37,539 nt of DNA from Gammaproteobacteria bacterium (GTDB taxonomy: Bacteria > Pseudomonadota > Gammaproteobacteria > Xanthomonadales > SZUA-5), in NCBI GenBank assembly GCA_030430155.1, contig JAUIFV010000029.1:1-37539 (forward strand), read 5' to 3'. The translations under genes and the position numbers were made by a program. Below, one piece after another: positions 13,420 to 35,374 of this stretch. Each line of letters opens with the position of its first letter. Positions within the stretch are counted from its first letter, which is position 1. The notes beneath the pieces were generated by a model. That model was not told where the DNA came from. It made no database searches and worked only from the letters and a program-made list of their open reading frames with translations.

Positions 13420-14628
13420 TTAAAGCTTGAACTCCACGCTAATCCAGAGTTTGTCCACGTCGACTGAGAAGTCTTGTGCGTCGTAGTGCGCGTACTTGAT
13501 AAACGCATTCCACTTCGGCGCGAAGGCCCAGCTCAGCTGCAGGTTCAGCTCCTGACCGAAATCGGCTGATCCTCGATTGGCGTCGTACTGGTGCCAGCGC
13601 ACGGCATACTTGAGCGGACCTAGCGGGCCGTCCACGCCGAGGTAGAAGTCATCCAGGCCGGCGCTGGGCGTGTTCAGAAAGCGGTCGGCCCAGCCGTTGA
13701 AGGCGTGCAGCGTGGCCAGCGGCGTTTGCAGCGCGCGCCTGCCGTTGCTGCCCAGCGATTCGAAGCCCAGTCGAAACTGATGACCGCGGTAGGCGTAGCC
13801 GCCTTCAGCCAGCCAGTAACTCACATCGCCCAGATCGGGGGCGTCGGCGTAGTCGGACTGGGAGGCATACTCGGCGCTGTAGAACCAGCCACGCTGCTCG
13901 TCTATCGCATGCTTGCCGCCGAAGCGCAGTCCGAAGGTCTTGCTGGAGGTCGCCGGCAGGTCCTGGTTGTCATAGAAGTAGCCATAGCCGATCAGGCTGC
14001 CGAAGGGCAAGGTCCAGGCCAGATTGAACAAGTGCGTGTCCAGATCCTGCTCTGCCGCAATCGGATTGGGGTGGCCGTTGCCGAAGATGCGGTGGGCTTG
14101 GTCCAGATAGGCGTAGCGAAAGCTGACGTTGTCGCCGAGCCTCCAGGCCACCGACAGCGCGTCGAAGGTCTGTTCGTTCTGGCGCCAACCGACGTTACCG
14201 ATGAAGCGGTGGTTGTCCATCGCCAAGCGCTGCCGCCCCAGCGCAAACTGATTGCCGTCGCTACCTTTCCAGCCCAGATAGGCCTGATTCCACTCGCTGC
14301 CTTCAGGATCGACCACCACCGGCCGCGCCACTTCGCCATTGGCGGTGGAGTTGTAGTCCTCGATCAGCGCGCGCACATCTTCCAACTCGGCCAGCACATA
14401 CCAACCGTTGAGCGGCGCGCTCTGCCAGCCCAGGCGGGTGCGCAGGGTCAGCGCGCTGGCATCCTGTGCGAGGGCGTCATCGTCGACCTGTTCCAGGCGC
14501 AGGCGAGTGTCAAAGAGGAGTTTGCCGTTGCTGTACCAGTTGCCCTCGTCGGCCACGACCGGCGACGGCATTGCCATCGCCAAGACGAGTGCGACCGAAA
14601 GACAAGAGACGCGCGAAGTGACTTTCAT
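13420..14628 (-). CDS. Alginate-export-type outer-membrane porin
   Basis: A 402-residue protein with a signal peptide (residues 1-26, ending PVVADEG) and an alternating beta-strand pattern throughout. The motifs RLRLEQVDDD, LTLRTRLGWQS, NQAYLGWKGSDGNQFALGRQRLAMDNHRFIGNVGWRQNEQTFD fit the alginate_export outer-membrane barrel family (AlgE-like). It ends ISVEFKL, a last barrel strand. Family members export polysaccharide or act as general porins; the substrate is not known. It lies 81 bases downstream of nirS on the same strand and is probably co-transcribed, so nitrite entry or NO/nitrite exchange is possible but unproven. Confidence 0.82.
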   Translation of the reverse strand: MKVTSRVSCLSVALVLAMAMPSPVVADEGNWYSNGKLLFDTRLRLEQVDDDALAQDASALTLRTRLGWQSAPLNGWYVLAELEDVRALIEDYNSTANGEVARPVVVDPEGSEWNQAYLGWKGSDGNQFALGRQRLAMDNHRFIGNVGWRQNEQTFDALSVAWRLGDNVSFRYAYLDQAHRIFGNGHPNPIAAEQDLDTHLFNLAWTLPFGSLIGYGYFYDNQDLPATSSKTFGLRFGGKHAIDEQRGWFYSAEYASQSDYADAPDLGDVSYWLAEGGYAYRGHQFRLGFESLGSNGRRALQTPLATLHAFNGWADRFLNTPSAGLDDFYLGVDGPLGPLKYAVRWHQYDANRGSADFGQELNLQLSWAFAPKWNAFIKYAHYDAQDFSVDVDKLWISVEFKL

Positions 14629-14671
14629 CGTCGATATCCAAAGCGAACAGCCGGGGAGAAAGAGGCCCCGA

Positions 14672-14686
14672 CGCCACCGTGTGGCG
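14672..14686. other. Stem-loop between nirS and the porin gene
   Basis: CGCCAC-CGT-GTGGCG gives a perfect 6-bp GC-rich stem in the 81-base gap. With no T-tract it is more likely a processing or mRNA-stability structure within a nirS-porin transcript than a full terminator. Confidence 0.35.
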
Positions 14687-14709
14687 ACGCCGGGATTTGT
14701 CGGCGCCGT

Positions 14710-16818
<2,109 letters not shown>

Positions 16819-16880
16819 CTAGCCTCGCCCCACAGATCGGGCACTGGGTTGAGCTTGCGAGCCTTGCGCTGGCCGGCGCC

Positions 16881-16894
16881 ATGACCTGAATCAA
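16881..16894 (-). promoter_or_regulatory. FNR/Anr-type box upstream of nirS
   Basis: ATGAC-CTGA-ATCAA on the plus strand; on the nirS strand it reads TTGAT-TCAG-GTCAT, 8 of 10 positions of the TTGAT-N4-ATCAA consensus. Its centre is about 81 bases from the nirS ATG, compatible with a class II position near -41.5 and a leader of about 40 bases. The start sites are inferred, not seen. Confidence 0.55.
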
Positions 16895-16927
16895 GGACTG
16901 GCGATCCTGCCGATTTGCTTGTCGGTC

Positions 16928-16941
16928 TTGATCCAGATCAT
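16928..16941 (+). promoter_or_regulatory. FNR/Anr-type box upstream of the TonB-dependent receptor
   Basis: TTGAT-CCAG-ATCAT matches the consensus at 9 of 10 positions. The centre is about 64 bases before the ATG of the receptor, which fits a -41.5 activator site with a short leader. The FNR-type regulator encoded just downstream carries the E..SR recognition residues for this half-site. Confidence 0.65.
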
Positions 16942-16998
16942 CGCCTGACCGGTGATCGCGCAGGCAATGTTTGAGGCAGCAATCCGGGAATCGACTCG

Positions 16999-19173
16999 AT
17001 GATCACATCCAGTTTCGTTCTGGCTCTCATCCTGGCCGCGCAGACGCCGCCATCGCCTACCCCTCTGGAACCGGTGGTCAGCGTCGCGGCTCGCGCCGAG
17101 CAGCCGCTGCGCGAGGTCGCCGGGACTGTGTCGCTGATCGAGTCCGAACGCCTGCAGCAGACCCTGGCCGGCGATCTGGGCGAGGCCCTGCGCTACGAAC
17201 CCGGCGTCAGCGTGCCGCGCGATGCGGTGCGCTTTGGCGCCAGCGGCATCAGCATGCGCGGACTGGGCGGCAATCGGGTTGGCCTGTGGGTGGACGACGT
17301 GCCGGTGGGTGAGGGTTTCGCCATCGGCAGCTTCTCCAACGCTGATCGCGGCAGTCTGGAAACCGCATTCCTGTCCCGAATTGAACTGATGCGCGGGCCG
17401 GCATCCTCGCTGTATGGCTCGGACGCGCTGGCAGGCGTGGTCAGCCTGCGCACCTTCAAGGCTGCAGATCTGCTCGCCGAGGTCGACGGAGGCAGCGCGG
17501 TGCGCACCCGTTTGCTCGCCAGCAGCGCCAACGACAGCTTGCAGAGCAGCGCGCTGGGCGCTTGGCAGCTGGGTCACTTCGACCTGCTTGCCGGCGTAGT
17601 ACACCGCCGCGGTAGCGAGCGCGAGACGCGCCCGCGCAGCGGTGGCCTGGAGGCCAACCCGAGCGACGTGTCCGGCAGTGGCCTGCTGCTGAAAATGGGA
17701 GTGGACCAGGGCTGGGGCGGTCGCCATGAGCTGTCGGTGGAGCGCACCGCCGAGCGCCTGGAGAGCGACTTGCGCTCCTTCGTGGGCGGGCCGGCACAGT
17801 ACGCCACCACCACGCAGATGCTCGGCGACGATGAGTTGGTCCGGCAACGCTGGTCGCTGCAAAGCAGCTTTCCGCTGACCCTTTCAGGGCTGGACAATCT
17901 GCGCTTGAGTCTGTGGCAGGCCGAATCGCGATCAGCGCAGCGCACCCTGCAAACCCGACGCGCCGCCCCGCCACGCACTCCACACTCATTACGTGACCGG
18001 CTGTTTGTGTACAAGGACCGCAGCATCGGTTTGAGCGTGCGTGGCGAGGGCCGCTTCGGTATCGGGGGCTCAGAGCACTGGCAGGTCTTTGGCCTGGATC
18101 TGCGGCGCAGCGACATCAGCGAACTGCGCGACGCGACCGAGACCAACCTCGACACGGGCGCGGTGACCAACGTGCTGATCGGTGAACGCTTTCCGCTGCG
18201 CGACTTCCCGCCCACCCGCAGTGACCAGTTGGGCATCTACTGGCAGGACGAGGTGCAGTTCGGCAACGGCCGGCTGACGCTGATTCCCGGCATCCGCCAC
18301 GATCGAGTGCGGATCGATGCACGCCCCGATCGGCTGTTCATCGAAGACAACCCCAACTTCGCGGCCGCCGATCTGAAAGCGGCACGCACGACGGCCAAGC
18401 TGGGGCTGCGCTGGGCACTATCACCGCACTGGCAGCTCTACAGCCAATATGCGCAGGGTTTCCGCGCACCGCCGGCGTCTGACCTCAATGTCGGCTTCAC
18501 CATTCCCGCCTTCAACTACGTCGCCCTGCCCAATCCTGATCTACGCCCGGAGCGCAGTCAGGGGCTGGAGCTGGGACTGCGCTGGCTGGGCTCGGCCGGC
18601 AGCGCGGAACTGGTGGTCTTTCACAATCGCTACCGGGACTTGATCGAATCGCGGGTCAATCTGGGCCGCGACCCCGACAGCGGCGCGCTGGTCTTTCAGT
18701 CCATCAACCGCGCCGAAGCCACGATCGAGGGCATGGAAGTGCGCGGGGAGTTCGCCCTGCCGCATCCGGACTACTCACTGATCGGCTCGCTGGCTTGGGC
18801 CCGCGGTCAGGACGACGCGCGATCGCTGCCGCTGAACAGCGTCGAACCGGCGCGCTTGGTCGTCGGTATGGTCTACGAGCCCATCGACGGCCGCCAGCGT
18901 GTCGAGCTGACCGCAACTGCGGTCGCCGCCAAACAGCGGATTGACCACTCCGCCGGCGATCTCTTCAGCGCACCGGGCTACGTCGTCATCGATGCCTATT
19001 GGCGGATGGCGCTGAGCCCGCGCGTGGAGATCAACCTGGGCCTGTTCAATCTGACCAACCAGCGCTACTGGCCCTGGTCCAGTGTCGCCGGCCTCGAAGC
19101 CAGCGCGCCCGAAGTCGATCTGTACACGGCGCCGGGCCGCAGCTTCGGTGCGTCCGTGCAGTACCGCTGGTAG
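16999..19173 (+). CDS. TonB-dependent outer-membrane receptor
   Basis: A 724-residue receptor: signal peptide (about residues 1-15), a possible TonB-box region (EPVVSVAARAE), the plug domain at about 35-150 (SLIESERLQQTLAGDLGEAL, SGISMRGLGGNRVGLWVDDVPV, RIELMRGPASSLYGSDALAGVV) and a 22-strand barrel ending in SVQYRW with a terminal aromatic. FRAPP and NPDLRPE are present; in heme receptors these motifs flank a conserved His, which is absent here. The substrate (heme, siderophore, copper or other) is therefore undecided. It is divergent from nirS and next to the FNR gene, with its own FNR-type box, so import under low oxygen of a metal or cofactor needed for denitrification is an inference. 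Confidence 0.9.
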   Translation: MITSSFVLALILAAQTPPSPTPLEPVVSVAARAEQPLREVAGTVSLIESERLQQTLAGDLGEALRYEPGVSVPRDAVRFGASGISMRGLGGNRVGLWVDDVPVGEGFAIGSFSNADRGSLETAFLSRIELMRGPASSLYGSDALAGVVSLRTFKAADLLAEVDGGSAVRTRLLASSANDSLQSSALGAWQLGHFDLLAGVVHRRGSERETRPRSGGLEANPSDVSGSGLLLKMGVDQGWGGRHELSVERTAERLESDLRSFVGGPAQYATTTQMLGDDELVRQRWSLQSSFPLTLSGLDNLRLSLWQAESRSAQRTLQTRRAAPPRTPHSLRDRLFVYKDRSIGLSVRGEGRFGIGGSEHWQVFGLDLRRSDISELRDATETNLDTGAVTNVLIGERFPLRDFPPTRSDQLGIYWQDEVQFGNGRLTLIPGIRHDRVRIDARPDRLFIEDNPNFAAADLKAARTTAKLGLRWALSPHWQLYSQYAQGFRAPPASDLNVGFTIPAFNYVALPNPDLRPERSQGLELGLRWLGSAGSAELVVFHNRYRDLIESRVNLGRDPDSGALVFQSINRAEATIEGMEVRGEFALPHPDYSLIGSLAWARGQDDARSLPLNSVEPARLVVGMVYEPIDGRQRVELTATAVAAKQRIDHSAGDLFSAPGYVVIDAYWRMALSPRVEINLGLFNLTNQRYWPWSSVAGLEASAPEVDLYTAPGRSFGASVQYRW

Positions 19174-19221
19174 CCACAATCGGCTGCCCACCCTGGCCCG
19201 GACCCCTCAAACCAAGGCAAA

Positions 19222-20004
19222 ATGCGGCAGCATTTTGTTGGAGGGATCGCGTTGCTTGGGCAAACCGAAACGCTGTGGCCGGCGTCGCCGGTGGACGATG
19301 GCGACCAGCAGCACTTTTGCAGCACCTGCGTCTTTGGCAACTTGTGCATGCCCAACGGATATAGCAAGGACGCGCTGCGCGAACTGCATTGCCTGGTCGA
19401 GCATGTCGGCCCATTCCGCACCGGAACCGAGATCTTCCGCAGCGGCGGCGAGTTCACCGCGGTCTATTCGGTGCGCGCCGGGGTGGTCAAGACGGTGGTC
19501 CGCGATGATCGCGGCCGCGAGCAGATCCTCGGCTTTCATACCCCGGGTGAACTGGTCGGACTGAACGCCGTCTATGGCGACCGCTACCCCTGCAATGCGG
19601 TCGCCGTCGACACGGTGATGGTTTGCCGTTTCTCTTTTCCGGCCATCGCCACCCTGTCGGCGAAGATCCCCGACCTGCAGCACACCCTGTTCAAGCTGAT
19701 GGCCAAGGACATCGGCACCGCGCAGATGGGCAAGGGCGACTTCAGCGCCGAGGAGCGATTTGCGGCATTCCTGGTCAACTGGTGCGAGCGACTGGCCGAA
19801 CGCGGCTATTCGGACCGCCGGATCTCTTTGCCAATGCCCCGCGGCGACATCGCCAATCACCTCAACCTGGCCCCGGAGACGGTGAGCAGAGTGATCCGAC
19901 GTTTGATCGATGAGGGTGTGCTGGCGGTGGACCGACGCGATGTGGAGGTGCTCAACAAGAGCGCTCTGCGCAGCTACGCCGCATCCTTGCTGCAGCGGGC
20001 CTGA
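19222..20004 (+). CDS. FNR/Anr-type oxygen-responsive Crp family regulator
   Basis: A 260-residue Crp/Fnr regulator. Cysteines C33, C36 and C42 in FCSTCVFGNLCMPN and C135 in DTVMVCRF correspond in spacing and context to C20, C23, C29 and C122 of E. coli FNR, so an oxygen-labile 4Fe-4S cluster is expected. A cyclic-nucleotide-like beta roll spans about 60-150, and the helix-turn-helix contains GDIANHLNLAPETVSRVIRRL, with the E..SR residues that read TTGAT half-sites. It should activate anaerobic genes, here nirS, the TonB receptor, norZ and nnrS through nearby boxes. A TTG at 19252 has a far better ribosome site (GGAGGG, 6 bases before) than the ATG at 19222, so the true protein may lack the first ten residues. 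The cysteines rule out a Dnr-type NO sensor. Confidence 0.93.
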   Translation: MRQHFVGGIALLGQTETLWPASPVDDGDQQHFCSTCVFGNLCMPNGYSKDALRELHCLVEHVGPFRTGTEIFRSGGEFTAVYSVRAGVVKTVVRDDRGREQILGFHTPGELVGLNAVYGDRYPCNAVAVDTVMVCRFSFPAIATLSAKIPDLQHTLFKLMAKDIGTAQMGKGDFSAEERFAAFLVNWCERLAERGYSDRRISLPMPRGDIANHLNLAPETVSRVIRRLIDEGVLAVDRRDVEVLNKSALRSYAASLLQRA

Positions 20005-20058
20005 GCTCAACTCGGAACGGGATTGCGGTGTAGAGGACCGCTGCCCGTCGGCCGGACG

Positions 20059-20466
20059 TCACCCCGCCAGCCAGTTCCGTAGAACGCCGAGGGGATGGTG
20101 TGCGCGGGCGATACTCACCATCAGGCCGATGCAAGCCAGCGCAAGCGTCAAATAGCCAGCCCGTGACCAAGCCGAGCGCTCACCGCGTAGTGCTCTGCTT
20201 CCGGCCAGCACATAGAGCACCAGCAACACCAGTTTGACCGTCAGCCAATGATTGGCGAAAACCGCGCCGGGCAGAATTGCCAGCAGCATCAGCGCAGCGG
20301 TCAGCAGCGTCGTGTCAATGCTGTAGCTGAGGTAGCGAAGCGGTGCCGCCAGCGCAAAGCGCGGCCGGCCCGCCAGCACCAGCACCCCGCGAATGACCAG
20401 CAGCAGCACGCTGGCGAAGACGCAGAGCACGTGCAGGTCTTTGATTTGTGGGTAGAACTGGATCAT
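20059..20466 (-). CDS. SirB2 family membrane protein
   Basis: A 135-residue protein with four hydrophobic segments, beginning MIQFYPQIKDLHVLCVFASVLLLVIRGVL. The HxxxV start, LRYLSYSIDTTLLTAALML and NHWLTVKLVLLVLYVLAGSRAL agree with the SirB2 family. Function is not established; the family resembles small heme-binding or electron-transfer membrane proteins in having conserved histidines. It is 73 bases downstream of norZ and probably on the same transcript, so a role linked to NO or quinol chemistry is possible. The ATG chosen is the family start; upstream residues in the frame overlap the norZ end. Confidence 0.85.
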   Translation of the reverse strand: MIQFYPQIKDLHVLCVFASVLLLVIRGVLVLAGRPRFALAAPLRYLSYSIDTTLLTAALMLLAILPGAVFANHWLTVKLVLLVLYVLAGSRALRGERSAWSRAGYLTLALACIGLMVSIARAHHPLGVLRNWLAG

Positions 20467-20539
20467 TGCCGGACTCTGATGCGCCGAGCTGCGGGGGCAA
20501 GCCCGCAGCTCGGATGGACAACTTGCGGAAAGGGCAAAG

Positions 20540-22804
20540 CTAGCTTCGCTGCTCAACCAGTACCGGCTCGGCTTTGGGTTTCAGCCACAGCCGCAGCGTG
20601 AACCAGGCCAGCATGATCGCCCCAGCGGAGAAGATCGTATCGCCGGGCACACGCATCCAGACCAGCAGTTCGATGATCGGTTTGCCCATGAAGTCCGCCG
20701 AACGGGCATACCAGTAGCCGTGCTCCAGCGCGGCCTGCAGCTGCAATACGCCCATCGGCAGCAGGGTAAGCAGCGCCATCAGCGCCAGTCCGATGTTCAG
20801 ACTCCAGAAGGCACCGCGGAGCAGGCCCGGGTTCCAGACCGTATCCGGCTTCAGGCCACGCAGACAGAACAGCATCAGTCCGATGCCGAGCATGCCATAG
20901 ACGCCAAACAGTGCGGTGTGGCCATGCAGCGGGGTCAAATTCAGACCCTGCATGTAGTAGAGCGCCAGCGGCGTGTTGATCAGAAAGCCGAACAGACCGG
21001 CACCGACCAGATTCCAGAACGAGACCGCCAGGAAGAACATGATCGGCCAGCGGTAGCGGGCCATCCACGGGGTGGCTCGGGAATGACTCCAGGTGTCGTA
21101 GGCTTCCAGCCCGATCAGCGCCAGCGGCACCACCTCCAGCGCCGAGAAGCTGGCGCCCAGCGCCAACACCGCCGTGGTGGTGCCGGTGAAGTACAGGTGG
21201 TGGAAGATTCCCAATACGCCGCCGGCCATGAACACGATGGTGGCGAACAGCACGTTGATGGTCGCGGTCTTGCCGCGGATCAGACCCAGCTTGACGAACA
21301 GGAAGCTGATCACCGCAACGGCGAAGACCTCGAAGAAGCCTTCCACCCAAAGGTGCACTACCCACCAGCGCCAGTATTCGACCATCGCGATATGGGTGTG
21401 CTCACCCCACATCAGGCCGGCGCCGTAGAACATGCCGATGGCCACGGTGGACAGGAATAACAGGCCGACAATGGAGGACATCTCATCGCGCCGCTGCATG
21501 GCCGGCCACAGCGCCCGGCCAACCAGGAACAGCCACAGCATCAGGCCGATGAACAGGAATATCTGCCAGAAGCGGCCGATATCCACATACTCCCAACCCT
21601 GGTGACCAAACCAGAAATTGTGCTCCAGTCCGAGGTTTTGCATCACCGCAAACCACTGGCCGGCAAAGGCGCCGACCACGATGATCAGCAGACACACAAA
21701 CAGCACGTTGACCCCGAGGCGCTGGAACTTCGGCTCCACGCCGGAGATCGCCGGACCGATGTACAGACCCGTGGCCAGCCAGGCGGTGGCGATCCACAGC
21801 ACCGCCAGCTGGGTGTGCCAGCTGCGGGTCAGCGCATAGGGCAGGATCTCGGCCAGCTTGATGCCGTAGGCCTCCTGCCCTTCCACCTGGTAGTGCGCAG
21901 TCGCTGCGCCGAGCACGATCTGCACCAGAAACAGCGCCAGCACCACCCAGAAGTACTTGGCGGTGGCGCGCATCGACGGGGTGATTTTCAGCCCGCGCAG
22001 CGGATCGGTCGCCGGCGGCACCACCGGCTGCTCCCGTCCGTGCCAAACGGCGTAGTGCCAGCCCAGCAGGGCAATACCGGCAATCATGAACAGGATGCTG
22101 AACATGGTCCACATGAAGCTGCTGGCCGTTGGGGTGTTGCCGGCCAGCGGTTCATAGGGCCAGTTCTGGGTGTAGCTGATCGTGCTGCCCGGACGTTCCG
22201 CCGCGGCCGCCCAGGCGGTCCACCAGAAGAAGGCGGTGACCGCCTGCCGGTGCGCCGGGTCGGGGATGGTGTCCTCGCGCATGGCGTAGGATTCGCGCAG
22301 CTCGGCACTGCGCGGATCATCGCCAAAGACGCTCACATAGTGCTCGGCCACGCTGCGCATGGCGGCAGCGCGCAGCGGGGACACGGTGATGGTGGCGCTT
22401 TCCGGATCATAGGTGTTGCTCCTTAGCTCCGGCTGCACTCGGGCAGTCAACGCCGCCTGGGCGGCCGCATCCAAGGCCTCGAAGGACTGCCCATGCTCTT
22501 GCAGGGCCAGCGATTCCAGCATCGCGATGGCTTCCCGATGCAGCCAGTCAGCCGACCAGTCCGGCGCAACCAGCGCGCCGTGACCCCAGATCGAGCCCAG
22601 CTGCTGACCGCCGATGCTCTGCCAGACCTGACGACCCAGCTCCATGTCCGCCCGGGTATACAGCACTTCACCCTGAGTGCTGACCACCTGCTCGGGCAGC
22701 GGTGGCGCCTGTCGATGCACTTCGCCACCCATCCACAGCAGCACCGAGAAGGTGACTACCAACAGCACCGCCAGTCCTATCCATAGTCGCTTGGTGGTAT
22801 CCAC
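20540..22804 (-). CDS. norZ: Quinol-dependent nitric oxide reductase, single-subunit (NorZ type)
   Basis: A 754-residue heme-copper-type membrane enzyme that reduces two NO to N2O using quinol. Its length and N-terminal extension (after the first TM at 9-25: QVVSTQGEVLYTRADMELGRQVWQSIGGQQLGSIWGHGA) are typical of qNor, which has no separate NorC. Fourteen or so TM segments follow, with motifs HNFWFGHQGWEYVDIGRFWQ, VEYWRWWVVHLWVEGFFEVF (active-site His and Glu region) and GIFHHLYFTG (heme-ligand histidines). It starts at GTG with GAGGGAG seven bases upstream. Two FNR-type boxes lie upstream at 22874 and 23039. With NirS it gives nitrite to N2O, and it also detoxifies NO. Confidence 0.96.
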   Translation of the reverse strand: MDTTKRLWIGLAVLLVVTFSVLLWMGGEVHRQAPPLPEQVVSTQGEVLYTRADMELGRQVWQSIGGQQLGSIWGHGALVAPDWSADWLHREAIAMLESLALQEHGQSFEALDAAAQAALTARVQPELRSNTYDPESATITVSPLRAAAMRSVAEHYVSVFGDDPRSAELRESYAMREDTIPDPAHRQAVTAFFWWTAWAAAAERPGSTISYTQNWPYEPLAGNTPTASSFMWTMFSILFMIAGIALLGWHYAVWHGREQPVVPPATDPLRGLKITPSMRATAKYFWVVLALFLVQIVLGAATAHYQVEGQEAYGIKLAEILPYALTRSWHTQLAVLWIATAWLATGLYIGPAISGVEPKFQRLGVNVLFVCLLIIVVGAFAGQWFAVMQNLGLEHNFWFGHQGWEYVDIGRFWQIFLFIGLMLWLFLVGRALWPAMQRRDEMSSIVGLLFLSTVAIGMFYGAGLMWGEHTHIAMVEYWRWWVVHLWVEGFFEVFAVAVISFLFVKLGLIRGKTATINVLFATIVFMAGGVLGIFHHLYFTGTTTAVLALGASFSALEVVPLALIGLEAYDTWSHSRATPWMARYRWPIMFFLAVSFWNLVGAGLFGFLINTPLALYYMQGLNLTPLHGHTALFGVYGMLGIGLMLFCLRGLKPDTVWNPGLLRGAFWSLNIGLALMALLTLLPMGVLQLQAALEHGYWYARSADFMGKPIIELLVWMRVPGDTIFSAGAIMLAWFTLRLWLKPKAEPVLVEQRS

Positions 22805-22873
22805 CTTTGCACTCCCTCATCTGTCTGAAAGTCGATCGATGACAGATGCTGAGCGCTGCTCACGATGCCGCCC

Positions 22874-22887
22874 ATGATCCAGATCAG
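22874..22887 (-). promoter_or_regulatory. Weak FNR-type box near norZ
   Basis: ATGAT-CCAG-ATCAG matches the TTGAT-N4-ATCAA consensus at 8 of 10 positions and shares the CCAG spacer with the TonB-receptor box. Its centre is about 76 bases from the norZ GTG, the distance expected for a -41.5 activator site with a short leader. Confidence 0.45.
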
Positions 22888-23038
22888 GAAAGCCCGATTC
22901 TTTGGCGTCAACTGTCGATGCCAACGCAGATTCTTCGGCAGAGTGCCCGGCGCCCGCACGACCGGGTTGGGAATCGCAATTACCCCCCCCAGCTTCTCGA
23001 CCCAAGGCCGCGGCTGCGACGCGTCTTTCCAATCCCGC

Positions 23039-23052
23039 TTGATACGAATCAA
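23039..23052. promoter_or_regulatory. Perfect FNR/Anr box between norZ and nnrS
   Basis: TTGAT-ACGA-ATCAA is an exact match to the FNR/Anr palindrome. It lies 235 bases from norZ and 179 from nnrS, so it could serve either or both promoters with long leaders. The 426-base region 22805-23230 also has a run of eight C at 22983-22990, a weaker box at 22874 and a 16-bp stem at 23150-23189; no gene was supported in it. Confidence 0.75.
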
Positions 23053-23149
23053 GGCGGGCATTTGCACCAGCTGACAAGCTCACTGCGTGCCGAGTCGCAA
23101 AGTACGGCCTAGCTGCTGCGATCACGCAACTCGGCACATGGCAACGGTA

Positions 23150-23189
23150 AGCGCTCGATGCTGTGCTCTCTCCCACAGCACCGAGCGCT
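23150..23189. promoter_or_regulatory. 16-bp stem-loop in the nnrS leader
   Basis: AGCGCTCGATGCTGTG, an eight-base loop (CTCTCTCC), then CACAGCACCGAGCGCT: 16 paired positions with a single G-T-type mismatch. It ends 41 bases before the nnrS ATG. It could be a protein-binding inverted repeat, a leader RNA structure or a terminator-like block; there is no T-tract. Confidence 0.55.
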
Positions 23190-23230
23190 GATCGCCGTCA
23201 TCCCTCCTCTCAATCACACACTCGTTCACG

Positions 23231-24445
23231 ATGTCACCGCAATCCATCGCTCAACTGTTCGCAGCGGCGCCGCATCGGCTGCTGTTCTTCGGCGGGGTCA
23301 GCGCGCTGCTGCTGTCGATGATCTGGTGGGCGGCGTGGCTGGGCGCGCTGCGTTCCGGCTGGTGGACGATGCCGCTACCGTCCATCCCTGCCGGATGGGC
23401 ACACGCCATCGGTATGCAGTACATGGCGATCCCGCTGTTCATGTTCGGCTTTCTGCTCACCGTCTTTCCGCGCTGGATGAACCTGCCGGCGCTGGGTTTT
23501 CGGGCCTATCTTCCGGTCAGCGGCAGCCTCTTTGTCGGCTACGTGGCTTTCCACCTGGGCCTGCTCGGCTACCCGCTCATCGTCAACGCGAGTTTGCTGG
23601 TGGTGACCATCGGCTGGGCAATTGGCCTGATCGTGTTACTGCGTCTGCTATGGCTGGACGGCGCGCGCACCTACCACGCCAACGCCTGCTGGTTCGCGTT
23701 GGGCATGGGCTTTTTGGGCTTGCTGCTGGTGCTTGGATACCAGGCCAACGGCGACGCTCGCCTGCTCTACGGCGCAATCAAGCTTGGCACTTTCGGGCTG
23801 CTGTTGCCGATCGTCCTCAGCGTTGGCCACCGCATGGTGCCGTTCTTTTCCAGTCTGGTTATCGACAACTATCAGCCCTTCAGACCCGGATGGGTGCTCA
23901 TCGTCCTGCTAGCGCTGAGTCATGCCCATATGCTCTTGGAACTGGTACACGGACAGCGCTGGCTGTGGTTGGTGGACCTGCCGATGACAATCCTGGGTGC
24001 ATGGCTGAGTTGGCGCTGGGGGCTTTTTCGAACAGCGCACAATCGCTTGCTGCTGGTACTCCACCTGAGCTTCGCCTGGTTCCCGATCAGCTTCGCGCTG
24101 TTCGCCCTGCAGAGTCTGATCTACTGCTTTGATGGCAGCTTTGTGATGGGCCGGGCGCCAGTCCACGCCCTGACCATCGGCCTGTTTGGCAGCATCTTGG
24201 TGGCAATGGTGACTCGGGTCACTCAGGGCCATTCCGGACGCCCACTGCAAATGGGTACTGTGCCCTGGCTCAGCTTCCTTTCACTGCAACTGGTGGCAGT
24301 GATACGGGTGCTTGGCGAACTGGGCAGCGATCCGCTGCTGTGGCAGTGCATCGCCGCGCTGGCCTGGGTAATCGCGCTGTTGCCTTGGGCACTGCGCTCG
24401 GCGTGGATCTACCTGACGCCGCGCATTGACGGCAAACCGGGATAG
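23231..24445 (+). CDS. nnrS: NnrS family NO-response membrane protein
   Basis: A 404-residue polytopic protein with about twelve TM segments. It matches the NnrS family: HRLLFFGGVSALLLSMIWW, HAIGMQYMAIPLFMFGFLLTVFPRWMNLP (family signature GFLLT..P.W), GHRMVPFF, and VHALTIGLFGSILVAMVTRVTQGHSGRPL near the C-terminus. NnrS is a heme- and copper-containing inner-membrane protein reported to relieve nitrosative stress by lowering iron-NO complexes, and is usually regulated by NO or oxygen regulators. It is divergent from norZ, sharing a region with a perfect FNR box and a strong stem-loop. Confidence 0.94.
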   Translation: MSPQSIAQLFAAAPHRLLFFGGVSALLLSMIWWAAWLGALRSGWWTMPLPSIPAGWAHAIGMQYMAIPLFMFGFLLTVFPRWMNLPALGFRAYLPVSGSLFVGYVAFHLGLLGYPLIVNASLLVVTIGWAIGLIVLLRLLWLDGARTYHANACWFALGMGFLGLLLVLGYQANGDARLLYGAIKLGTFGLLLPIVLSVGHRMVPFFSSLVIDNYQPFRPGWVLIVLLALSHAHMLLELVHGQRWLWLVDLPMTILGAWLSWRWGLFRTAHNRLLLVLHLSFAWFPISFALFALQSLIYCFDGSFVMGRAPVHALTIGLFGSILVAMVTRVTQGHSGRPLQMGTVPWLSFLSLQLVAVIRVLGELGSDPLLWQCIAALAWVIALLPWALRSAWIYLTPRIDGKPG

Positions 24446-26465: not shown

Positions 26466-29400
26466 ATGTCGACCGCCCCTACCCTCGCCCGGCAGATCAA
26501 CCGGGCTGAGGTCGTCGACCAGCAGTTTGTGCGCTTTGTCCAGGAGTATGACGGCGCCGTCGCTCCGCAGGCACCCTCAGCTGAGCAGACCCTGCACGCC
26601 CACTCCACGCTAACCGCACAGGCCTTCGAGCGACTCTTCGAGTCGCAGCTGATCTCCCGTCATCTGGACCTGATGGCGCGGGTGCTGCGGGTGCGCAACA
26701 AGGTCTTCTACACCATCGGCAGTTCCGGTCACGAAGGCAATGCAATGGTGGCCAGGGCCAGCCGCCACACCGACCCGGCGTTCTTGCATTACCGTTCCGG
26801 CGCATTCATGGCCGAGCGCTTCCGCAAACTGCCGGGCATGGATCCGATCTACGATTCGGCATTGAGCTTCGCCGCCAGTTGCGAGGATCCAGCCAGCGGT
26901 GGCCGGCACAAAGTCTGGGGCAGCAAGCCGCTGTGGGTGCTGCCGCAGACCTCGACCATCGCCAGCCATCCGCCCAAGGCCTACGGCACCGCCCTGGCTA
27001 TCGAACATGCGCGACGTATCGGCCATCAGCTGCCGATACCGGACGATTCCATAGTGGTATGCAGCTTTGGCGATGCCAGTGCCAATCACTCCACTGGTCA
27101 AGGCACTTTCAACGCCTGCGAATGGGCCGTGCATCAGGGGCTGAAGGTACCGCTGCTGTTCGTCTGCGAAGACAACAATATCGGCATCTCGGTGCGCACC
27201 CCGGCCGGCTGGATCGAAACCAGCTTCGCCAATCGCCCGCATCTGCGCTATTTCCAGGCCGATGGATTGGATCTGGTCCACGGCTGGGATCGTGTTCAGG
27301 CCGCAGTGGACTACTGTCGCCGCGAGCGCAAGCCGGCCTTCCTGCACCTGCGCACCGCGCGGCTGATGGGCCATGCCGGCACCGATTTCGAGGTCGAGTA
27401 CCGGGCGATCGAAGAGATCTGCGCCGATGAGGCCCTGGATCCGCTGCTGAAATCGGCGCGCTGGGCGCTGCAAAGCGGCCTGTACACCCCGCAGGCGCTG
27501 TTGGACAAGTACGAGAGCATCCGCAAAGCCTGTTTCGACGCGGCAGAACGTGCCGACCAAACCGCCAAGATCACCACCCTGGACGAGGTGATGCGGCCGC
27601 TGGCGCCGTACACCGCGACCGCGGTCAATGCCGAGGCCAGCCGCGCCGACTACCAGGACAAGCGTCTGGCCTTGTGGGGCGAAGAGCGCGCCCTACCGGA
27701 AAATCAAGCGCCCAAACATCTGGCTATTCAGATCAATCAGGCTCTGCACGATCTGCTCTTGAAGTACCCCAATTCGCTGATTTTCGGCGAAGATGTGGCC
27801 CGTAAAGGCGGCGTCTACACCGTTACCAAGGGTCTGTTCAAGGCCTTCAAAGGGGCCAGGGTGTTCAACACCCTACTCGACGAGCAAACCATCCTGGGGC
27901 TGGCCCAGGGCTACGCCAATCTGGGCTATCTGCCGATTCCGGAGATCCAGTATCTGGCCTACTACCACAACGCCTGCGATCAGATTCGCGGCGAGGCCTG
28001 CTCGCTGCAGTTCTTCAGCAACAACCAGTACCGCAATCCGATGCTGATGCGGGTCGCCGGACTGGGCTATCAGAAGGGCTTTGGCGGTCATTTCCACAAC
28101 GACAACTCCTTTGCCGCGCTGCGTGACATTCCAGGCCTGATCATTGGCTGCCCCAGCCGCGGTGATGATGCGGCGATGATGCTGCGCACGCTGATGGCGC
28201 TGTGCCAGGTGGATGGGCGGGTCTGTGCCTTTCTCGAGCCCATCGCCCTGTACATGACCAAGGACCTGCACGAAGCTGGCGACGGCCTGTGGAGCTTTGC
28301 CTACCCAGATCCCAGCCAGCACATCGCACTCGGCGAACCGCGCATCTACAACGCAGAAGCCAGCGACCTGCTGATCATCAGCTACGGTAACGGACTGCTG
28401 ATGGGCTTGCGTGCGGCCAAGCAGATCGCCGAAGAGCAGGGACTCTCGGTTCGCGTCATGGATCTGCGCTGGCTGCTGCCGCTCAACGAAGCGGCCATCA
28501 TTGACCAGGCAAAACAATGCAAACGCGTGCTGATTGTTGATGAAGGTCGGCGCTCAGCCAGCGTTGGCGAAGGCATCATGACTGCCCTGGTAGAAGGTGG
28601 TGCTGCTGAGCGTCCAATTGCCCGCGTGGTCGGCGCTGACACCTATACGCCGCTGGCAAGTGCTGCGACACTCGTGTTGCCGTCTGATCTCGAGCCGATC
28701 ACCATCCTGTTCGCCGATATAGCGGGCAGTACCAAGCTGTTTGAGCTGTACGGCGATGTCGGCGCACGGCAGCTGACTTCGCAAGTGCTCGGCGTGCTCA
28801 GCGAAATCACCGTCAAGAACGGCGGGCGGGTGATCAAAACCATCGGCGATGAGCTGATGGTGACCTTCCCCGGACCAATGAACGCAGTGATGGCGGCAAT
28901 GGAGATGCAGCGCCGTGTGGCCGGCGACGCGGAGTGGGCCAAGCAGCATTTGGCCGTCCGTATCGGCCTGCACTACGGCGATGCGCTGCTGGAAGATGGC
29001 GATGTCTATGGCGACGCGGTGAATCTCGCCGCACGAGTGACCGGTCTGGCCAAGCGCGAGCAGATCGTCACCACCGTTACCACCATCGACGCGATCACCA
29101 ACGCCAGCTTCATCCGCACCCGCCATCTGGGTCAGGCCCGGGTGTCTGGCAAGCTGCAGCCGGTCGACATCGTAGACGTCATCTGGCAGGAAGACACCTC
29201 CAACGTCACCATGGTGGCCCGCGCGATCAAACTCGATGACGCGCCCACCGGCCACAAGCTGGTGTTGCGCTTCCGGGGTGAGTTGATCGAGGTTTCTGAT
29301 GTCTCCCCACCCTTCGGTTTGGGCCGTGATCACGGCAATGCCCTGGTAATCGACAACGAGTGGGTGTCGCGCAACCACGCCAGCATCGAGTTCAGCCGCG

Positions 29401-29576
29401 GCTTCTTTGTGGTCACCGACCGATCCACCAACGGCACCTACGTCAAGCTCGGTGACGACGACGAAATCCGCCTGCACCGCGACGAACTGCAGCTGCGCAA
29501 GAGCGGCTCTATCAGCCTGGGCCAACTGGCCGAGCGCAAACCTGAGGATGTGCTGCACTTTCAGTGCACAACCTAG
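26466..29576 (+). CDS. E1 2-oxoacid dehydrogenase (alpha+beta) fused to adenylyl cyclase and FHA domain
   Basis: One uninterrupted 1036-residue frame. Residues about 45-370 are a thiamine-diphosphate E1 alpha domain (GDASANHSTGQGTFN near 200 and EDNNIGISV near 235, the ThDP motif). Residues about 415-738 are E1 beta (FGEDVARKGGVY near 439 with the cofactor-activating Glu, LDEQTILGLAQGYA, EIQYLAYYHNACDQI, VVGADTYTPL). The E1 ends at LVLPSD and, with no linker, a class III cyclase begins: FADIAGST (metal D751), IKTIGDE (adenine-selecting K791, metal D795), D846, N853 and R857 in DVYGDAVNLAAR. K791/D846 indicate ATP as substrate. Residues about 930-1025 are FHA (GR at 953-954, SRNH at 968-971, STNGT), a phosphothreonine reader. 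No E2/E3 genes are adjacent. A real fusion, recent deletion or assembly joint are all possible. Confidence 0.9.
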   Translation: MSTAPTLARQINRAEVVDQQFVRFVQEYDGAVAPQAPSAEQTLHAHSTLTAQAFERLFESQLISRHLDLMARVLRVRNKVFYTIGSSGHEGNAMVARASRHTDPAFLHYRSGAFMAERFRKLPGMDPIYDSALSFAASCEDPASGGRHKVWGSKPLWVLPQTSTIASHPPKAYGTALAIEHARRIGHQLPIPDDSIVVCSFGDASANHSTGQGTFNACEWAVHQGLKVPLLFVCEDNNIGISVRTPAGWIETSFANRPHLRYFQADGLDLVHGWDRVQAAVDYCRRERKPAFLHLRTARLMGHAGTDFEVEYRAIEEICADEALDPLLKSARWALQSGLYTPQALLDKYESIRKACFDAAERADQTAKITTLDEVMRPLAPYTATAVNAEASRADYQDKRLALWGEERALPENQAPKHLAIQINQALHDLLLKYPNSLIFGEDVARKGGVYTVTKGLFKAFKGARVFNTLLDEQTILGLAQGYANLGYLPIPEIQYLAYYHNACDQIRGEACSLQFFSNNQYRNPMLMRVAGLGYQKGFGGHFHNDNSFAALRDIPGLIIGCPSRGDDAAMMLRTLMALCQVDGRVCAFLEPIALYMTKDLHEAGDGLWSFAYPDPSQHIALGEPRIYNAEASDLLIISYGNGLLMGLRAAKQIAEEQGLSVRVMDLRWLLPLNEAAIIDQAKQCKRVLIVDEGRRSASVGEGIMTALVEGGAAERPIARVVGADTYTPLASAATLVLPSDLEPITILFADIAGSTKLFELYGDVGARQLTSQVLGVLSEITVKNGGRVIKTIGDELMVTFPGPMNAVMAAMEMQRRVAGDAEWAKQHLAVRIGLHYGDALLEDGDVYGDAVNLAARVTGLAKREQIVTTVTTIDAITNASFIRTRHLGQARVSGKLQPVDIVDVIWQEDTSNVTMVARAIKLDDAPTGHKLVLRFRGELIEVSDVSPPFGLGRDHGNALVIDNEWVSRNHASIEFSRGFFVVTDRSTNGTYVKLGDDDEIRLHRDELQLRKSGSISLGQLAERKPEDVLHFQCTT

Positions 29577-34035: not shown

Positions 34036-34210
34036 ACTGGCATCATCTCTCGCAGCTCTATGAATCTACCGCTAGGCCTCCGCGGACCAGCATTCATGAA
34101 CAACGCAGGCTAGCGCTTGCGGCCATTGCTGGCCCGGGCTACTGTCGATATCAAAGCCGCGCGCCAGTTAGCGCCGCGTGCGGTCGCAAAAACCAGCCAA
34201 GGAAGAAACG

Positions 34211-35374
34211 ATGAATTTTCAGTTCACCGACGAGCAGCTGATGCTGCAGGACGTAGCGCGCAAGTTCGCCGCCGAGCAGATTCAACCCATCGCTGCCAAA
34301 CATGACGCTAGCGGAGAGTTTCCGCTGCCGACCATCCGTCAAATGGGCGAGCTCGGCCTGATGGGCATCGAAGTGCCCGGCGAGTACGGCGGTTCGGGTC
34401 TGGACGCAATCAGCTACGTGTTGGCGATGGTCGAGATCTCCGCCGTCGATGCCTCCCACGGCACCATCATGTCGGTCAACAACACGCTCTACTGCAATGG
34501 CCTGCTCAAATACGGCAGCGAAGAGCAGAAACAGGCCTACGTGCGACCGGTCGCCGAAGGCAAGGCCATCGGCGCCTATGCATTGACCGAACCGCAGTCC
34601 GGCTCTGACGCTTCCTCGATGCGTATTCGTGCGGTAAAGAGCGCCGACGGCAGCCACTACGTGATCAACGGCAAAAAGAGCTGGATCACCTCCGGACCGG
34701 TGGCCGACTATGTGATTCTGTTCGCGGTGACCGAACCCGCCGCAGGTTCCAAGGGCATCAGCGCCTTCATCATCGACACCAACAAGGAAGGCTTCCACCG
34801 CGGCAAGTCCGAGCCCAAGCTGGGCATCCGCGCCTCGGCCACCTGCGAGATCGAGTTCACCGACTACCAGTGCCCTGCCGAGAACCTGCTCGGCAAGGAA
34901 GGCGAAGGCTTCAAGATCGCGCTGGGGGTGCTCGATGCCGGCCGCATCGGCATCGCCGCTCAGGCCGTCGGCATCTCCCGTGCCGCCTACGAGGCCGCGG
35001 TAGCCTACGCTGGCGAGCGCAAGGCATTCGGCCAATCCATAGGCAGCTTCCAGATGATTCAGCAGAAGATCGCCGACATGAAGTGCCGGCTGGACGCAGC
35101 CTACCTACTTACGCTTCGCGCCGCCTGGCTCAAGCAGCAGGCGGTCAACAGCGGCGCTCGCTTCACTACCGAAGCCAGCGTTGCCAAGCTCACCGCATCC
35201 GAAACCGCCATGTACATCACCCACCAGGCGGTGCAGATCCACGGCGGCATGGGTTATAGCAAGGAATTGCCGGTCGAACGCTACTTCCGCGATGCCAAGA
35301 TCACCGAGATCTATGAAGGCACCAGCGAGATTCAGCGCATGGTGATTGCGCGGATGGAAACTGGGTTGCGATAG
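34211..35374 (+). CDS. Acyl-CoA dehydrogenase, short/medium-chain type
   Basis: A 387-residue FAD enzyme of the butyryl-/short-chain acyl-CoA dehydrogenase group, which desaturates acyl-CoA for beta-oxidation and passes electrons to ETF. Motifs are FTDEQLMLQDVARKFA, YALTEPQSGSDASSM (flavin/substrate), KSWITSGPVADYVI, RKAFGQSIGSFQMIQ, QIHGGMGYSKELPVERYFRDAKI and IYEGTSEIQRMVIAR; the catalytic Glu is that of IYEGTSE. The ATG has AAGGAAG upstream; the frame is open 11 codons further up but without family residues. The 175-base gap before it, after lpxH, shows no gene or clear signal. Confidence 0.94.
   Translation: MNFQFTDEQLMLQDVARKFAAEQIQPIAAKHDASGEFPLPTIRQMGELGLMGIEVPGEYGGSGLDAISYVLAMVEISAVDASHGTIMSVNNTLYCNGLLKYGSEEQKQAYVRPVAEGKAIGAYALTEPQSGSDASSMRIRAVKSADGSHYVINGKKSWITSGPVADYVILFAVTEPAAGSKGISAFIIDTNKEGFHRGKSEPKLGIRASATCEIEFTDYQCPAENLLGKEGEGFKIALGVLDAGRIGIAAQAVGISRAAYEAAVAYAGERKAFGQSIGSFQMIQQKIADMKCRLDAAYLLTLRAAWLKQQAVNSGARFTTEASVAKLTASETAMYITHQAVQIHGGMGYSKELPVERYFRDAKITEIYEGTSEIQRMVIARMETGLR

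Follow-up and report, generated by a model that had tools for sequence, protein, structure and literature searches.

A predicted 2-oxoacid dehydrogenase E1, adenylyl cyclase and FHA domain in a single reading frame, at the site of an old gene pair

Does a reading frame that unites an enzyme of 2-oxoacid oxidation with a signaling cyclase encode a metabolic sensor, or does it record the joining of two neighboring genes? The frame that raises this question lies at 26466–29576 (+) of a 37,539-nt stretch of DNA (the window), in contig C246 of a 5.06-Mb gammaproteobacterial genome (G000) that is 96.6% complete in 287 contigs. A preliminary description, made from the sequence alone, had favored a metabolic sensor-cyclase and named an in-frame deletion or an assembly joint as the alternative. 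We consider it quite probable that a deletion of ~94 nt in one lineage fused an old pair of adjacent genes, one for an E1 enzyme and one for an adenylyl cyclase with an FHA domain (AC-FHA), and that its product most likely retains the functions of the two separate proteins.

The fused reading frame and its domains

The frame runs from ATG to TAG through 3108 nt free of stops and frameshifts and encodes 1036 residues. Five Pfam domains scored above their curated cut-offs: an E1 alpha-like domain (E1_dh, residues 62–368, 26649–27569, 4.7e-20), the E1 beta pyrimidine-binding domain (Transket_pyr, residues 423–590, 27732–28235, 5.3e-16), the E1 beta C-terminal domain (Transketolase_C, residues 631–733, 28356–28664, 3.5e-19, with a confident fold in the second structural model described below), a class III adenylyl cyclase catalytic domain (Guanylate_cyc, residues 742–897, 28689–29156, 3.6e-15), and an FHA domain (residues 952–999, 29319–29462, 2.4e-10), all on the forward strand. 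The first three stand in the order of an alpha/beta-type E1. The single E1/cyclase/FHA frame of the preliminary description is thus borne out by the open reading frame and its five domains. The 13 NCBIfam matches each fell below their cut-offs, so that no NCBIfam model names the fused protein.

The residues expected of each activity are in place. The thiamine diphosphate (ThDP) motif of an E1 usually begins GDG; here it reads GDAS at residue 202 and EDNN at 235 (residues 202–238, 27069–27179), and GDAS is the consensus among aligned relatives, i.e., a variant shared by the family. Cyclase residues D751, K791, D795, D846, N853, and R857 are invariant across 16 aligned AC-FHA sequences; we take them to be the two metal-binding aspartates, the Lys/Asp substrate pair, and the transition-state Asn and Arg. 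The FHA domain has GRD at 953, SRNH at 968, and TNG at 988, corresponding to the intact GR, SxxH, and NG phosphothreonine-contact motifs as defined in the passages available from PMC1262709. The ThDP motif, the six cyclase residues at these very positions, and the FHA contacts had all been listed in the preliminary description. By its sequence, then, the protein is a predicted alpha/beta 2-oxoacid dehydrogenase E1 followed by a class III adenylyl cyclase and an FHA domain.

Sequence relatives of known structure are pyruvate dehydrogenase (PDH) and branched-chain E1 chains and class III cyclases. The alpha and beta modules are homologous by sequence to those of two-subunit E1 enzymes (PDB 3duf and 1w85, PDH E1 beta; 1um9, alpha + beta), in which, however, alpha and beta are separate chains and carry neither cyclase nor FHA domain. 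The cyclase catalytic domain is likewise homologous by sequence to those of Ma1120, LipJ, and Rv1264, which have other partner domains. Closer still in layout are stand-alone AC-FHA proteins of Gammaproteobacteria (~300 residues), which by match extent have the cyclase and then the FHA domain as in the fused protein, with the catalytic residues common to the 16 aligned, but no E1 ahead of them.

The full-length match to the fused protein is unique in its genome, and its E1 is the sole E1 copy there. Three other matches were found: a distant E1 beta (30% identity) and two weak matches to the cyclase region on contigs C244 and C284, which were rejected as copies of the locus because they are ordinary cyclase domains.

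A gene pair in relatives and a deletion at the junction

A query spanning the junction was searched against 398 genomes from the order and 369 from the class, G000 being counted in both; in the order survey ~4 candidates were scored per genome, with any fused match expected at the top. Only G000 matched without a break across the junction, both among the matches listed for the order and in the class, so that a conserved three-part sensor-cyclase was not upheld: no second genome with this architecture was seen. Open frames of more than 1100 residues at cyclase matches in G038, G213, G109, G385, and G370 were set aside as fusions because each has a stop between the genes, as were matches past the junction in G009, G201, G302, and G536, which the match listing indicates to be read-through alignments with an internal stop. 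Open-access literature, judged by titles and the openings of abstracts, yielded no description of the E1/AC-FHA pair or fusion. Within the reach of these searches the fused architecture is new; it is seen in one lineage and is made of known parts, probably by a simple deletion.

What relatives do have is the unfused pair. Among the matches listed in the order survey, 82 genomes including G000 have a clear AC-FHA ortholog (the weakest ~6e-53), and in 55 of these, from eight of 12 families, it lies on the same strand no more than 1.4 kb downstream of E1. Checked base by base, 52 of the 55 pairs all have an E1 stop; in the other three (G041, G047, and G053) the coordinates place the genes in different frames. 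One genome, G000, is fused. The remaining 26 showed no pair: the genes are unlinked or further off (3.3 and 6.0 kb in two), E1 has no ortholog, or, in G034, pairing could not be judged because E1 is at a contig end. The tandem order is old and far above chance, although the 55 cases, related by descent, are not independent events. Several genomes of family f9 have the E1 stop at or within the start of the cyclase match, and in L183–L194 and L201–L202 of that family E1 and AC-FHA abut or overlap by a few bases, an arrangement that suggests translational coupling.

These counts bear on the proposed sensor, in which the ThDP or substrate state of E1 would allosterically control the cyclase and the FHA domain would link it to Ser/Thr kinases. 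The intact catalytic motifs fit such a protein, as do the tandem order in eight families, with its abutting or overlapping ends in f9, and the 17 matches to cyclic-nucleotide-binding domains in the genome; together with two E2 loci, neither of them beside the fused gene, these matches mean that partners for both activities could exist. On the other hand, the fusion occurs in just one genome of the two surveys, pairing is not seen in 26 of the 82 AC-FHA genomes listed, and of 48 genomes in which E1 has a clear ortholog, 22 have none for AC-FHA among the matches listed, which argues that E1 does not depend on the cyclase. We regard an allosteric sensor of this kind as very unlikely. The broader idea that E1 and cyclase work together keeps indirect support from the tandem pair in eight families: gene fusions indicate proteins that work together, and the pair standing side by side in relatives hints at this here.

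The congener shows what was lost. Same-genus genome G002 was taken to be record L037 (QIMA01000137.1), with which it agrees in coordinates and identities. It has the same domains in the same order but in two separate, adjacent genes, with E1 86.6% and AC-FHA 93.2% identical to the fused halves. Its E1 continues past LVLPSD for 17 residues, which hold the last helix, to a TGA; 31 nt then precede the cyclase ATG. In the fused frame D741 is followed directly by L742 (28685–28688, +), and 94 nt are missing relative to L037: 51 of E1 tail, 3 of stop, 31 of spacer, and 9 that encode the first three cyclase residues, the only ones of the congener's free cyclase that the fused half lacks. The LVLPSD-LEPITILFAD junction without the final E1 helix was therefore read correctly at the outset, and the alternative then offered, an in-frame deletion joining neighbors, matches the separate genes of relatives. 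The same description had named separate genes in relatives, with E1 tail and cyclase start in place, as the pattern that would speak against its sensor, and the relatives read have this pattern. In the other same-genus genome (G001, 84% complete) neither E1 nor AC-FHA was detectable. The remaining six genomes of the family have AC-FHA and E1 on different contigs, with no E1 ortholog found in G006.

Separate genes in relatives and the lack of another fused match in the order and class surveys support the favored reading. Once this lineage had parted from that of the sequenced congener, it would have lost a stretch of ~94 nt that ran from the last E1 helix through the stop codon and spacer to the cyclase start, and this would have left E1 and AC-FHA in one frame. 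The junction could possibly derive instead from a chimeric read or from minority-strain sequence. That the cells carry two genes and the 94-nt loss exists in the contig alone would explain why the fusion turns up in just one draft genome, itself in 287 contigs, when all relatives read have separate genes. We nevertheless judge this improbable, because the deletion ends have 2–4 nt in common insofar as L037 represents the ancestor, which would be far less than an assembler overlap and too little for k-mer collapse; because no second version of the locus was found in the assembly, where the junction DNA is single-copy; and because the join is in frame, as a random join would be one time in three.

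The E1 tail, the predicted fold and selection

The missing tail is a near-constant feature of the family. Among 127 distinct E1 ends, a count that leaves out four loci with incomplete ends or partial matches, 126 have at least 10 residues after the LVLPSD position, and in 125 the tail is 10–31 residues long; in the fused protein the cyclase follows directly and the C-terminal helix of the E1 family is absent. The E1 ortholog at L076 has an acidic C-terminal extension of 132 residues. Loss of a tail that all other E1s read have kept might harm the E1, of which this genome has no other copy. An early pseudogene disabled by helix loss, or a gene of which only the cyclase half works, would accord with this conservation. 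The same frame is free of stops and frameshifts over its 3108 nt, its branch shows no clear excess of amino-acid change, and a fold is predicted for the E1 C-terminal domain even without the helix; a gene in decay consequently strikes us as a doubtful explanation.

The structural prediction comes from a second model of the fused protein, built on an alignment of 29 rows (mean pLDDT 77.0, pTM 0.61). A first model (mean pLDDT 79.2) was dropped over residues 625–741, where the E1 C-terminal domains of relatives had been misaligned onto the cyclase half; the second is worse than the first at 442–547, where it has low confidence. In the second model, block means are 70–95 for the E1 C-terminal domain (611–720, without the helix) and 65–93 for the cyclase, so that both look foldable in the fused chain as modeled; at a pTM of 0.61 domain placement is unreliable, and a single-chain model cannot show a dimer. 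Residues 725–740 have pLDDT below 50, from which the last segment of E1 itself probably acts as a loose tether. The preliminary description's join "without linker" is accordingly not fully accurate. A low-confidence tether of this kind in the model, rather than a defined signaling linker, also tells against allosteric control of the cyclase by E1.

Comparison with the congener by the NG86 method gave dN 0.092 and dS 1.18 for E1 and dN 0.043 and dS 1.01 for AC-FHA, the dS values near 1 being close to saturation. Changes were polarized by unanimous family outgroups. For E1, six fell on the branch of the fused gene and 10 on the sister branch (7 third-state and 70 unpolarized changes were unused); for AC-FHA the figures were four and three (5 third-state and 7 unpolarized unused). 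The AC-FHA half of the fused gene is slightly less outgroup-like than its congener's in five of six comparisons, by at most 1.4 points. Both halves have been under purifying selection with no clear excess of change on the fused branch, although most of the divergence time predates the deletion, so that these figures tell little of the fused form.

On the deletion reading, both activities would most likely carry over from the separate proteins. The E1 would decarboxylate a 2-oxoacid with ThDP, probably 2-oxoadipate to give glutaryl-CoA, and pass the acyl group on to a lipoyl E2 whose gene lies elsewhere. The cyclase would form cAMP as a dimer, and the FHA domain would bind a protein carrying phosphothreonine. 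What the fusion would add is co-localization, E1 oligomers keeping two cyclase domains close together on a loose tether.

Upstream neighbors, the E1 substrate and other genes of the window

The assignment of a substrate draws on the genes beside E1 in relatives. An upstream cluster common to 37 E1 loci belongs to the acyl-CoA dehydrogenase family. The member beside E1 in L171 best matches solved glutaryl-CoA dehydrogenases (2eba at 1e-141, then 3swo and 3sf6), with another, 1sir, ranking after a plain acyl-CoA dehydrogenase, and it has in common with the solved glutaryl-CoA dehydrogenases the segments TYEGT and RS..SVQSSL, which presumably have catalytic roles. NCBIfam matches to five such upstream proteins were non-specific and below cut-off. 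Upstream sequence of 2.5 kb is available for 61 distinct E1 loci, and in 48 of them the same strand encodes, upstream of E1, a protein with 69% or more identity to that of L171; the distance is more than 1 kb in 40 of the 48. Examples are at L171:32–1192, L183:601–1764, and L091:3290–4483. At 26 distinct loci the glutaryl-CoA dehydrogenase (GcdH) gene ends within 150 nt of E1, and AC-FHA is next downstream in 22 of these. No such gene was found upstream in 12 of the 61 loci, including the near relatives L037, L038, L039, L056, L088, and L098, and L096, the thirteenth, has a match that is weaker and lies downstream. Neither the window nor the 3.1 kb available from the congener has one upstream of E1; the ortholog in this genome (81%) is on contig C237. 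An acyl-CoA dehydrogenase gene at 34178–35374 of the window encodes a different, short-chain-like member of the family. The EamA transporter gene upstream was rejected as a conserved neighbor because the search of E1 loci turned it up in this window alone.

The upstream glutaryl-CoA dehydrogenase of relatives suggests that E1 supplies glutaryl-CoA, i.e., that it uses 2-oxoadipate, and this neighborhood favors 2-oxoadipate over pyruvate or branched-chain acids as substrate. The E1 may thus be a 2-oxoadipate dehydrogenase of the alpha/beta type, although the failure to find such a gene next to E1 in the window, in the congener, and in several near relatives counts against this substrate for the present organism. 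The human enzyme DHTKD1 is of the OGDH type rather than the alpha/beta type. According to the part of PMC9367764 consulted, DHTKD1 converts 2-oxoadipate to glutaryl-CoA, the same reaction as that proposed from gene neighbors for this E1 family. Passages of PMC7645780 report that Agrobacterium tumefaciens derives a biotin precursor from either lysine or 2-oxoadipate by way of glutaryl-CoA; these passages do not name the enzyme.

The fusion is seemingly a single event, yet it falls exactly on a pair that is adjacent in eight families and often led by glutaryl-CoA dehydrogenase. A tentative, rather speculative extension is that GcdH, E1, and AC-FHA form one unit in Lysobacterales, in which a single-chain 2-oxoadipate E1 binds or controls an FHA-type cyclase, so that cAMP output would be set by lysine or tryptophan breakdown through glutaryl-CoA and, as another input, by threonine phosphorylation. 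If this were true, the fused gene would amount to a natural experiment in which the contact has been made permanent. Two predictions are testable: that the E1 makes glutaryl-CoA, and that it binds or regulates the FHA-type adenylyl cyclase.

Elsewhere in the window, 14710–24445 holds a denitrification-type cluster with a TonB receptor, a Crp/FNR-type regulator, NnrS, and a NorB-type nitric oxide reductase with a cytochrome c-like domain. The cytochrome cd1-type protein of this cluster (698 residues, minus strand) has two cytochrome c-type domain matches before its D1 domain; an extra cytochrome c domain on a cd1 protein seems unusual. A 1034-residue open frame antisense to the cd1 gene (13705–16809, +) is probably a by-product of codon bias.
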